A program made the position numbers and the translations under genes. 64,000 nucleotides of DNA from Streptantibioticus cattleyicolor NRRL 8057 = DSM 46488 (GTDB lineage Bacteria; Actinomycetota; Actinomycetes; Streptomycetales; Streptomycetaceae), in NCBI RefSeq assembly GCF_000240165.1, contig NC_017586.1, positions 4,973,228-5,037,227 on the forward strand, written 5' to 3'. Under the pieces are notes generated by a model, which was not told the DNA's origin, ran no database searches, and saw only the letters and a program-made list of their open reading frames with translations. Positions 52,732 through 58,346 of the stretch are shown piece by piece; positions within the stretch are counted from its first letter, which is position 1, and each line of letters opens with the position of its first letter.

Positions 52732-52803
52732 GCACGGCCACCGCCTGCTGGACGACACTGGTACAGGGGATAGCCCCGAGCCCTCTTGGGGGAAGGTTTC
52801 TGC

Positions 52804-54030
52804 ATGGGCTTCCACGTGGATTCCGAGGCCGGACGGTTGCGCCGGGTCATCCTGCACCGGCCGGACCTGGAGCTGAAGCGGCTCACCCCGTCCAACCGGG
52901 AGCAGTTGCTTTTCGACGACGTGTTGTGGGTACGCCGGGCCCGTGCGGAGCACGACGGGTTCGCCGACATACTGCGGGACCGGGGGATCGAGGTGTATCT
53001 CTTCGGGGATCTGCTGCGTGAGACGCTGGAGGTGCCGCAGGCGAGGGCGCTGGTGCTGGAGCGGGCCTTCGACGAGAAGGAGTTCGGGCCGCTGGCCACC
53101 GAGCACCTGCGGGCGGAGTTCGCCCGGATGCCCTCGGCGGAGCTGGCCGAGGCGCTGGTGGGCGGGGTGACCAAGCGGGAGTTCCTGGAGCGGTACCCGG
53201 AGCCGGTCTCGGTGCGCTTCCACGTCATGGAGCTGGACGACTTCCTGCTCAGCCCGCTGCCCAACCACCTGTTCACCCGCGACACCTCGGCGTGGGTGTA
53301 CGACGGGGTGAGCATCAACGCCATGCGCTGGCCGGCGAGGTGGCGGGAGACCGTGCACTTCGAGGCGATCTACCGGTACCACCCGCTCTTCGCGCCCGGC
53401 GGCTTCCACGTCTGGTCGGCGGGGCAGTCGGCCTACCCGTCCACCATCGAGGGCGGGGACGTGCTCGTCATCGGCAACGGGGCGGTGCTGATCGGGATGA
53501 GCGAACGCACCACGCCGCAGGCGGTGGAGATGCTGGCGCGCGGCCTGTTCGCGGCGGGCTCGGCGCGTTCCATCGTCGCCCTGGACATGCCGAAGGGCCG
53601 GGCCTTCATGCACCTGGACACGGTGATGACGATGGTGGACGGGGACACCTTCACCAAGTACGCGGGGCTGGGGATGCTGCGTTCGTACACCATCGAGCCG
53701 GGCGCCGAGGAACGCGAGCTGAAGGTGACCGACCATCCGCCCGAGCACATGCACCGGGCGATCGCGGCGGCGCTGGGCCTCGACGACATCCAGGTCTTCA
53801 CCGCCACCCAGGACGTCCACTCCGCCGAACGCGAGCAGTGGGACGACGGGTGCAACGTGCTGGCCGTCGAGCCCGGTGTGGTCGTCGCCTACGAGCGCAA
53901 CGTGACCACCAACACCTTCCTGCGCAAACGCGGCATCGAGGTGATCACCATCCCCGGCAGCGAACTGGGCCGGGGCCGGGGCGGACCACGCTGCATGAGC
54001 TGCCCGGTGGAGCGCGACGCGCTGCGGTGA
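52804..54030 (+). CDS. arcA: Arginine deiminase
   Basis: The 408-aa enzyme converts arginine to citrulline and ammonia. It shows the guanidino-modifying fold motifs [19 protein letters not shown] and [21 protein letters not shown], and the C-terminal loop [10 protein letters not shown] whose Cys397 is the nucleophile. The ATG at 52804 has GGAAGG 7 nt upstream. With the ornithine carbamoyltransferase gene behind it, it provides two of the three steps of the arginine deiminase pathway; no carbamate kinase gene is in the window. Confidence 0.96.
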
Positions 54031-54067
54031 GCACCGCCGGCCGCCGCGGAGGACCAGCCCGCATAGG

Positions 54068-54089
54068 CATGCGCATTATCGTATACACT
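54068..54089 (+). promoter_or_regulatory. Promoter of argF with AT-rich, ARG-box-like sequence
   Basis: GCATGCGCATTATCGTATACAC is unusually AT-rich here, includes a -10-like TACACT at its right end and resembles an ArgR half-site pair. It lies about 65 bp before the argF start. The match to an ARG box is loose. Confidence 0.3.
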
Positions 54090-54153
54090 TCCGACACGCT
54101 CACCGCCGAGCCCGTGTCCCGACCCGTTCCGCCGCCGCGACTAGGAGTGCCCC

Positions 54154-55152
54154 ATGGCCGTCGACCTCAAGGGCCGCCATTTCCTCAAGGAGATCGACTT
54201 CACGCCCGAGGAGTTCCGCTCGCTCGTGGAGCTGGCGGGTGAGCTGAAGGCCGCCAAGCGGGCCGGTACCGAGGAGCAGCGGCTGCGGGGGCGCAACATC
54301 GCGCTGGTCTTCGAGAAGACCTCCACCCGTACCCGTTGCTCGTTCGAGGTCGCCGCGGCCGACCAGGGCGCCTCCACCACCTACCTGGACCCGGCCGGTT
54401 CGCAGATCGGCCACAAGGAGTCGGTCAAGGACACCGCCCGGGTGCTCGGCCGGATGTTCGACGGGATCGAGTACCGGGGCAGCGGCCAGGAGATCGTGGA
54501 GGAGCTGGCCGCCCACGCCGGGGTGCCGGTGTGGAACGGGCTCACCGACGAATGGCACCCCACCCAGATGCTCGCCGACGTGCTCACCATGACCGAGCAC
54601 TCCGCCAAGCCGCTCGACGGGATCGCCTACGCCTACCTGGGCGACGCCCGTTCCAACATGGGCAACTCGCTGCTGGTCACCGGCGCCCTGCTCGGCATGG
54701 ACGTGCGCGTCGTGGCGCCCCGGGCGCTGTGGCCGGCCGACTCCGTGGTCGCCGAGGCCCGCCGGCTCGCCGCGGAGACCGGGGCCCGGGTCACCCTCAC
54801 CGAGGACGTGGCCGAGGGTGTGCGCGGCGCCGACTTCGTCCACACCGACGTGTGGGTCTCGATGGGCGAGCCCAAGGAGGTGTGGGACGAGCGGATCACC
54901 ATGCTGCGCCCCTACGCGGTCACCATGGACGTGCTGCGGGCCACCGGCAACCCGGACGTGAAGTTCATGCACTGCCTGCCCGCCTACCACGACCTGGGCA
55001 CCGCGCTCGGCCGGGAGATCCACGCCGCCTACGGCCTCGACTGTCTCGAAGTCACCGACGAGGTCTTCGAGTCCGCCCACTCCATCGTCTTCGACCAGGC
55101 GGAGAACCGCATGCACACCATCAAGGCGGTGCTGGTCGCCACGCTGGGCTGA
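54154..55152 (+). CDS. argF: Ornithine carbamoyltransferase
   Basis: The 332-aa enzyme interconverts ornithine plus carbamoyl phosphate with citrulline. The carbamoyl-phosphate loop STRTR is in [12 protein letters not shown] (about 56-66), with [12 protein letters not shown] and the ornithine-loop HCLPAYHD near residue 272. Length and the STRTR-CSFE sequence match catabolic-type (ArcB/ArgF) enzymes. It follows arcA by 123 bp but has its own promoter-like sequence. With ArcA it probably serves arginine catabolism; an anabolic role is also possible. Convergent with the XRE-MurA gene. Confidence 0.95.
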
Positions 55153-55179: not shown

Positions 55180-56709
55180 TCAGATGTCGCGGAACGTCTC
55201 GATCTGCGCGCCGATGGAGTTGAGGCGTTCCGCCAGCTCCTCGTAACCGCGGTTGATCACATAGACGTTGCGCAGCACCGAGGTGCCCTCGGCGGCGAGC
55301 ATGGCCAGCAGGACGACCACCGCGGGGCGCAGCGCGGGCGGGCACATCATCTCGGCGCTGCGCCAGCGGGTCGGCCCCTCGACCAGCACCCGGTGCGGGT
55401 CGAGCAGCTTGACCGAGGCACCCAGCCGGGTCAGTTCGGTCAGGTAGATCGCGCGGTTGTCGTAGACCCAGTCGTGGATGAGGGTCGAGCCCTGGGCGGT
55501 GGCCGCGATCGCCGCGAAGAACGGGACGTTGTCGATGTTGAGCCCGGGGAACGGCATCGGGTGGATCTTGTCCAGCGGCGCCCGCAGCTTCGACGGGCGT
55601 ACCGTCAGGTCGATCAGCCGGGTACGGCCGTTGTCCGCCGGGTACTCGCCGCTGCGCTCGTGGTCCAGGCCCATCTCCTCCAGCACCGCCAGCTCGATCT
55701 CCAGGAACTCGATCGGCACCCGGCGGATCGTCAGCTCCGAGGAGGTCACCACGGCGGCGGCGATCAGGCTCATCGCCTCGACCGGGTCCTCCGACGGCGC
55801 GTAGTCCACGTCCCGGTCGATCTCCGCGACGCCGTGCACGGTCAGCGTGGTGGTGCCGATGCCCTCGACCCGCACGCCGAGCTGCTCCAGGAAGAAGCAG
55901 AGGTCCTGGACCATGTAGTTGGAGCTGGCGTTGCGGATGACGGTGACGCCGTCGTGGCGGGCGGCGGCCAGCAGGGCGTTCTCGGTCACCGTGTCGCCGC
56001 GTTCGGTCAGCACGATGGCGCGGCTGGGGGAGACGGTGCGGTCCACCTCGGCGTGGTACGAGCCGGTGGTGGCCGTGACCTCCAGGCCGAAGTGGCGCAG
56101 CGCCGCCATGTGCGGGTGCACGGTGCGGGTGCCCAGGTCGCAGCCGCCCGCGTAGGGGATCTTGAAGCGGTCGGTGCGGTGCATCAGCGGCCCGAGGAAC
56201 ATGATCACGCTGCGCGTGCGACGGGCCGCCTCGGTGTCCATGGCGTCCAGGTCGAGGGTGGCCGGCGGGACGATCTCCAGGTCGTTGCCGTCGTTGATCC
56301 ACCGGGTGCGCACCCCGATGCTGCCGAGGACCTCCAGGATCCGGTAGACCTCCTCGATGCGGGCGACCCGCCGCAAGGTGGTGCGACCGGAGTTGAGCAG
56401 CGACGCGCACAGCAGCGCCACGCAGGCGTTCTTGCTGGTCTTGACGTCGATGGCGCCGGAGAGCTGACGGCCCCCCACCACCCGCAGATGCATGGGTCCG
56501 GCGTAGCCCAGGGAGACGATCTCGCTGTCCAGCGCTTCGCCGATGCGGGCGATCATCTCAAGGCTGATGTTCTGGTTGCCGCGCTCGATCCGGTTGACCG
56601 CGCTCTGACTGGTCCCCAGCGCCTCCGCCAGCTGGGACTGCGTCCACCCGCGGTGCTGGCGGGCGTCACGGATGAGCTTGCCGATGCGTACGAGGTAGTC
56701 GTCTGCCAT
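55180..56709 (-). CDS. MurA-like enolpyruvyltransferase with N-terminal XRE DNA-binding domain
   Basis: The 509-aa protein fuses an XRE helix-turn-helix (residues 8-64; WTQSQLAEALGTSQSAVNRIERG) to a UDP-N-acetylglucosamine 1-carboxyvinyltransferase domain (about 73-505). MurA residues are kept: Lys93-Asn94 in KTSKNA and the catalytic loop Cys190 in AGGCDLGTR. MurA makes the first committed peptidoglycan precursor from UDP-GlcNAc and phosphoenolpyruvate; this fusion is a second MurA-type protein known in Streptomyces whose role is unclear. The domain pairing suggests a regulator that senses UDP-GlcNAc or PEP. A palindrome lies 12 bp before the start. Confidence 0.93.
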   Translation of the reverse strand: MADDYLVRIGKLIRDARQHRGWTQSQLAEALGTSQSAVNRIERGNQNISLEMIARIGEALDSEIVSLGYAGPMHLRVVGGRQLSGAIDVKTSKNACVALLCASLLNSGRTTLRRVARIEEVYRILEVLGSIGVRTRWINDGNDLEIVPPATLDLDAMDTEAARRTRSVIMFLGPLMHRTDRFKIPYAGGCDLGTRTVHPHMAALRHFGLEVTATTGSYHAEVDRTVSPSRAIVLTERGDTVTENALLAAARHDGVTVIRNASSNYMVQDLCFFLEQLGVRVEGIGTTTLTVHGVAEIDRDVDYAPSEDPVEAMSLIAAAVVTSSELTIRRVPIEFLEIELAVLEEMGLDHERSGEYPADNGRTRLIDLTVRPSKLRAPLDKIHPMPFPGLNIDNVPFFAAIAATAQGSTLIHDWVYDNRAIYLTELTRLGASVKLLDPHRVLVEGPTRWRSAEMMCPPALRPAVVVLLAMLAAEGTSVLRNVYVINRGYEELAERLNSIGAQIETFRDI

Positions 56710-56720
56710 GCGCTGAGGCT

Positions 56721-56736
56721 ATCTCACATATGAGAT
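56721..56736. promoter_or_regulatory. Palindrome ATCTCA-CATA-TGAGAT at the XRE-MurA promoter
   Basis: Perfect 6-bp arms around a 4-nt spacer, centred about 20 bp before the start codon of the XRE-MurA gene. Position and symmetry suit binding by an XRE dimer, so autoregulation is likely; this is inference. Confidence 0.5.
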
Positions 56737-56857
56737 GACAAACGCATCGGGTGGTCGGTGTGGCGTGAGAACCGTCGGAATGGCCCAACGGACACGCCTC
56801 GTTCCCCGGCCTTCCGCCCTCGGATACCCGGGGTTCCGCCCGCCAACCCCCGCAGCT

Positions 56858-58328: not shown

Positions 58329-58346
58329 TATCTCGACATCGAGATA
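58329..58346. promoter_or_regulatory. Perfect palindrome TATCTCGA-CA-TCGAGATA upstream of aconitase
   Basis: Eight-base arms with a 2-nt spacer lie 152 bp before the acnA start codon. This is typical of an operator for a dimeric regulator. I cannot name the regulator. Confidence 0.5.

Follow-up and report, generated by a model that had tools for sequence, protein, structure and literature searches.

MurA catalyzes the first committed step of peptidoglycan synthesis and is the target of fosfomycin. Enzymes that combine, in a single polypeptide, a metabolic activity with DNA-binding repression of their own pathway are known as trigger enzymes; BirA, NadR and PutA are examples, and the first two carry an N-terminal helix-turn-helix (HTH) domain. 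The locus described here resembles these proteins in joining an enzyme to a probable repressor—both roles being read from sequence—and differs in that (i) none of the three uses MurA, and (ii) its regulation appears to be strictly autogenous, usually with one site per genome. A further likeness is to BzdR and BoxR, in which an N-terminal XRE HTH precedes an enzyme-derived (shikimate-kinase-like) C-terminal domain and transcription is controlled in response to a ligand of the latter domain (PMC3602430). The change to a regulator cost BzdR its enzymatic activity (PMC3602430), and its target is a catabolic operon; the fusion described here, by contrast, has its catalytic residues intact, is often the sole MurA of its genome, and has its own gene as the apparent target. 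The enzyme-repressor kind is already known, and a description of the XRE-MurA version was not found in the open-access literature, most subscription journals lying outside the search. In S. coelicolor, SCO5998 (MurA2) is probably an orthologue of the fusion, judging from gene order and annotation. The passages of the two papers that deal with this gene describe a second MurA that adjoins the aconitase SCO5999 and has a predicted DmdR1 box (PMC12161575), with a SigB-dependent promoter of a sequence different from that considered below (PMC8346170); in these passages SCO5998 is treated as a UDP-GlcNAc transferase, and neither an HTH nor a palindrome is mentioned.

The fusion gene lies at positions 55180–56709, on the minus strand, of the window (the whole 64-kb stretch of Streptantibioticus cattleyicolor DNA analyzed here). 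Its open reading frame and profile matches define a 509-residue protein with an ATG start. A Cro/C1-type (XRE) HTH with near-invariant positions occupies residues 9–62 (56524–56685, minus strand), and contains the putative recognition helix QSAVNRIER (residues 35–43; 56581–56607, minus strand), the role of which is assigned from the HTH family. The MurA (enolpyruvyl transferase) domain, identified by profiles, fold and invariant catalytic residues, follows at residues 75–507 (55189–56487, minus strand). In Pfam, HTH_3 matches residues 13–64 (57 bits, cut-off 23) and EPSP_synthase residues 79–496 (156 bits, cut-off 22.8). In NCBIfam, the protein passes the MurA subfamily model NF006873 (327 bits, cut-off 297) and misses the murA equivalog TIGR01072 (313 bits, cut-off 393), as does every fusion examined; the HTH also gives a weak match to PRK08154 in a profile search. 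Sequence searches retrieve MurA entries of the PDB (best match 3e-56), and the AlphaFold model (mean pLDDT 78, with an HTH part of low confidence that is too poor for domain geometry) matches MurA crystal structures with an E-value of 1e-35. NikO is also among the matches of both the sequence and the structure searches. This UMP enolpyruvyl transferase of nikkomycin biosynthesis shares the MurA-like fold; it lacks an HTH, however, and the fusion is far closer in sequence to MurA. In a quick tree, the fusions form one clade, apart from 35 sampled actinobacterial canonical MurAs and E. coli MurA. Within the class, 114 of the 394 genomes carry the fusion, as do 26 of 138 genera. Two copies appear damaged: one is apparently broken into two frames in a genome that also has a canonical MurA (G611, locus L264), and another is apparently interrupted, the match stopping at residue 376 (G121, locus L265).

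Just upstream of the fusion gene lies the candidate operator O1 (56720–56737, no strand assigned), recognized by scans of the window and genome and by conservation among orthologues. Its core, the palindrome ATCTCACATATGAGAT (ATCTCA-N4-TGAGAT), occupies positions 56721–56736 and is separated from the ATG by 11 bases. The exact sequence ATCTCANNNNTGAGAT occurs once in the window, at O1, and once in the 8.1-Mb genome, where one more site has a single mismatch; a reversed-pattern control gave zero.

Conservation of O1 was assessed in (i) a near sample of 80 named orthologues from Streptomyces, Actinacidiphila, Kitasatospora and Nonomuraea, and (ii) a diverse sample of 60 further orthologues from other families (66–85% identity). 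A strict palindrome lies 27–34 nt upstream of the start in 78 of the 80 named orthologues, in flanking DNA that is dissimilar, and the diverse orthologues carry it too, in the generalized form TAWCTCA-N4-TGAGWTA. When near and diverse orthologues are taken together, 140 of 141 match at least 12 of 14 O1 positions. Random 230-nt windows seldom score 12, and at least some of those that do are probably explained by a separate aconitase palindrome (see below), which itself scores 12. A last batch of 20 orthologues, which includes all family genomes that have the fusion and lack the exact palindrome, adds 19 O1-type sites and brings the total to 159 of 161 at the same place. Since this position is kept while the surrounding DNA is not, the conservation of O1 is far above chance. 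In a set of 150 genomes of the family, 114 of the 125 that carry the fusion have the exact palindrome, versus 1 of the 25 that do not (Fisher p 2.5e-18, a value that shared ancestry makes too small); all 11 fusion genomes without the exact palindrome have a near variant in its place. O1 is also retained when the divergent neighbour differs, aconitase being found in the fetched flank of 52 of the 80 loci. A palindrome not conserved upstream of orthologues is what the first-pass annotation had named as counting against its proposal that the protein controls its own gene through this site. The palindrome is conserved, and the proposal draws strong support at the sequence level from the 159 orthologues with an operator.

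O1 also overlaps the predicted promoter of the fusion gene, as had been suspected from its location. The coding strand reads ATCTCATATGTGAGATAGCCT-CAGCGC-ATG: the last base of the palindrome is the first base of a -10-like box, TAGCCT (TANNNT; 56716–56721, minus strand), and the ATG starts 7 nt past this box. TANNNT is found in 81 of 81 sequences of the near set, its fourth-base T being present in all of these and in 56 of 59 of the diverse set; the register is near-constant, with the first in-frame start usually 10–12 nt beyond. The arrangement looks like that of a leaderless transcript. In the near set, codons 2, 7 and 14 (56668–56706) also show unusual synonymous usage, perhaps reflecting a leaderless start. 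As SCO5998 is reported to have a SigB-dependent promoter, the gene may have another promoter besides that at O1.

We consider it highly likely that the fusion is a bifunctional enzyme-repressor, that is, a MurA whose XRE HTH binds O1 and negatively autoregulates its own gene only. The C-terminal domain would be a catalytically competent MurA, and the Cro/C1-type HTH at the N-terminus, presumably dimeric, would bind the generalized O1 sequence, which takes up the spacer of the putative leaderless promoter and runs into the first part of its -10 box. With enough fusion protein in the cell, HTH dimers on O1 (and on O2, see below) would block RNA polymerase at the -10 region, and this negative autoregulation would be limited to the fusion gene itself. 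In this way the enzyme very probably lowers its own production in many actinomycetes; an autorepressing sole MurA would set the supply of wall precursors without a separate regulator.

Codon conservation points to a probable second operator, O2 (56555–56570, no strand assigned), within the gene and with its centre 166 bp from O1. O2 covers codons Ile/Leu48-Ser-Leu50-Glu-Met52, inside the HTH. Its half-site TGAGAT (56560–56555, minus strand) is encoded by CTT-GAG-ATG, and uses the rare codon CTT at Leu50 (56562–56560). Leu50 is CTT in 77 of 81 near-set sequences, whereas CTT makes up 0.8% of their remaining Leu codons, and codon 50 is the most deviant of approximately 500 codon positions (z 9.3); because the sequences are related, a raw binomial value for CTT is no probability, and the evidence is the contrast with other Leu positions of the same genes. 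CTT is kept at Leu50 in Streptomycetaceae and relatives and not retained in more distant families, marking O2 as a lineage feature. O2 is probably an auxiliary operator, acting by looping or as a roadblock, and as such would strengthen repression in Streptomycetaceae and their near relatives. CTT could also be kept for another reason, such as translation pausing, mRNA structure or an antisense element; this explanation, which we regard as possible without favouring it, would fit the left arm of O2, which is imperfect (4 of 6) in most species, and the restriction of the CTT constraint to one part of the class. Three observations nevertheless suggest an operator. Firstly, CTT-GAG-ATG and CTT-GAT-ATG each give operator half-sites: all eight orthologues with Asp in place of Glu51 use the rare codon GAT (background 4%), giving TGATAT, a variant that also occurs in O1 of other genera. 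Secondly, CTT is not used at this position in the LDL clade, whose amino acid sequence is incompatible with a complete half-site. Thirdly, in several family genomes the gene contains another exact palindrome, 167 bp in, so that both palindromes are perfect.

An auxiliary operator at O2 would be reminiscent of the GalR/gal system, in which one operator lies at the promoter and one within a gene, more than 100 bp apart; the difference is that here the intragenic site would lie in the HTH codons of the repressor itself, and that looping is only proposed. An operator half-site within the codons of a protein's own DNA-reading domain is unusual. MurA moves between open and closed states, making it plausible that UDP-GlcNAc, PEP or a product changes DNA binding by the fusion, the first two having been suggested as its ligands in the first-pass annotation; through these states, DNA binding may be coupled to substrate occupancy. 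We tentatively suggest that the fusion senses how far it is occupied by UDP-GlcNAc/PEP (and thereby also senses fosfomycin), and that it controls its own synthesis by a switch with two operators, O1 and O2. Such a switch, if real, would give some actinomycete lineages an inbuilt means of controlling entry into peptidoglycan synthesis.

Catalytic and contact residues in the MurA domain were assigned from the roles that we take the E. coli MurA residues to have. Lys93-Asn94 align with E. coli K22-N23, and Cys190 (56140–56142, minus strand) with C115, the residue targeted by fosfomycin; the reading of the protein as an XRE HTH joined to a MurA domain that keeps the Lys-Asn pair and the catalytic Cys, made in the first-pass annotation, therefore holds. 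Equivalents of K22, N23, R91, C115, R120, D305, R331, R371 and R397 are invariant in all 141 orthologues. The aligned UDP-GlcNAc contacts are uniformly replaced in the same 141 sequences (P121T, L124P, KVSVG at 160–164 to ERGDT, E188N, E190M, R232P and D369P), and the D123 equivalent is mostly E or Q. Every fusion, those of sole-MurA genomes included, has the ERGDT loop (residues 236–240; 55990–56004, minus strand) where ordinary MurA has its UDP-GlcNAc phosphate loop.

A search for any MurA covered 73 genomes, one of them a fusion-less control. The fusion is the sole MurA in 39 of the 72 fusion-bearing genomes—nearly all of them outside the Streptomycetaceae—and likewise in one further genome (G356), giving 40 in all. 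Thirteen of the 40 are single-contig assemblies with 99–100% completeness, and MurB was found in all 40. With MurB present and no other MurA, the fusion must make UDP-GlcNAc-enolpyruvate in these 40 genomes; the genetic evidence argues strongly that it is the working MurA there, in line with the enzymatic role first ascribed to it, and a scaffold-only or dead MurA is ruled out. The fusions bear the marks of a distinct class of MurA, set apart by a UDP-GlcNAc site that is remodelled even where no other MurA exists.

Where a second, canonical MurA does exist, as it does in this genome (G000:C2:2079287-2080582), the replaced contact residues mean that substrate or rate could differ. The canonical MurA might then build the wall, leaving the fusion mainly as a sensor or as the source of another enolpyruvyl product; the remodelled site would allow for this, and NikO is a precedent for a MurA-like enzyme switching its nucleotide substrate. 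We nonetheless think such a division of labour unlikely in two-MurA genomes: identical remodelled residues occur where the fusion is the sole MurA and so are compatible with the MurA reaction, and the catalytic residues are invariant in streptomycetes too. We infer that the fusion makes UDP-GlcNAc-enolpyruvate in this genome as well, beside the second MurA.

That the regulation is negative, we infer from the position of the operator only. An autogenous activator or dual regulator, bound between -35 and -10 and aiding RNA polymerase, would also place a palindrome in the promoter spacer, as with MerR-type activators, and could agree with the finding that no conserved -35 was seen in the aligned orthologue promoters. 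This seems improbable, however, in that the palindrome extends into the -10 box itself, and XRE proteins sitting on the -10 are typically repressors.

The DNA-reading residues and the operator change together. The recognition helix is near invariant in orthologues except in one genus (g23), and the only orthologues without O1, G668 and G285, both belong to this genus; their helix is rewritten, from TSQSAVNRIERGNQN to MTGTDIEQIEAGEHD and MTEQDIEQIESGQHD. In G668 (locus L236) the MurA domain is intact and is the only MurA of its genome, indicating, from the pattern of the pair, that DNA reading and operator were lost jointly while the enzyme was kept. The genus, in which the fusion is the only MurA, offers a natural comparison. 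(In G285, locus L252, the fusion gene is apparently split into two overlapping frames.) In a clade with an altered helix, TTQSAVAR, the operator arms are mostly CGCA (TATCGCA) instead of CTCA, and in one of its members (G083) both arms are altered symmetrically. Such co-loss and co-variation of helix and O1 are the marks of a regulator with its own operator. The literature ties SCO5998 to other regulators (SigB and, by prediction, DmdR1), but that the palindrome is the operator of another regulator of murA, with the fused HTH serving other DNA or dimerization, is very improbable given that it tracks the fusion across genomes, accompanies the gene into new neighbourhoods, and is missing from just those orthologues whose recognition helix has been rewritten, with arm changes going with helix changes.

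The regulon appears to consist of the fusion gene alone. The first-pass annotation had raised the prospect of other genes with the same site, which the genome scan did not bear out: beyond the exact copy at O1 there is the one single-mismatch site, and a wider regulon finds no support. The 18-bp form of O1 gives four sites with up to two mismatches in this genome, and family genomes usually contain one exact palindrome each. The idea of a conserved operon partner was rejected, acnA being adjacent in only 52 of 80 loci and other neighbours more rarely. The genes that converge on the fusion gene, at 52786–55152, probably encode arginine deiminase and ornithine carbamoyltransferase; they are matched in only 2 of 80 orthologue loci, and so are not a conserved partner.

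A separate 18-bp palindrome, TATCTCGACATCGAGATA, is located at 58329–58346, upstream of the divergent aconitase gene (start 58415). Its presence in 18 of 25 fusion-less family genomes argues against control of aconitase by the fusion through this sequence, and suggests that it is probably part of another system. The TATCTCGACATCGAGATA core is found upstream of aconitase in 49 of 52 streptomycete loci and, where present, every letter is invariant, the asymmetric centre included; it is probably an element of the acnA promoter in its own right, and under strong constraint.
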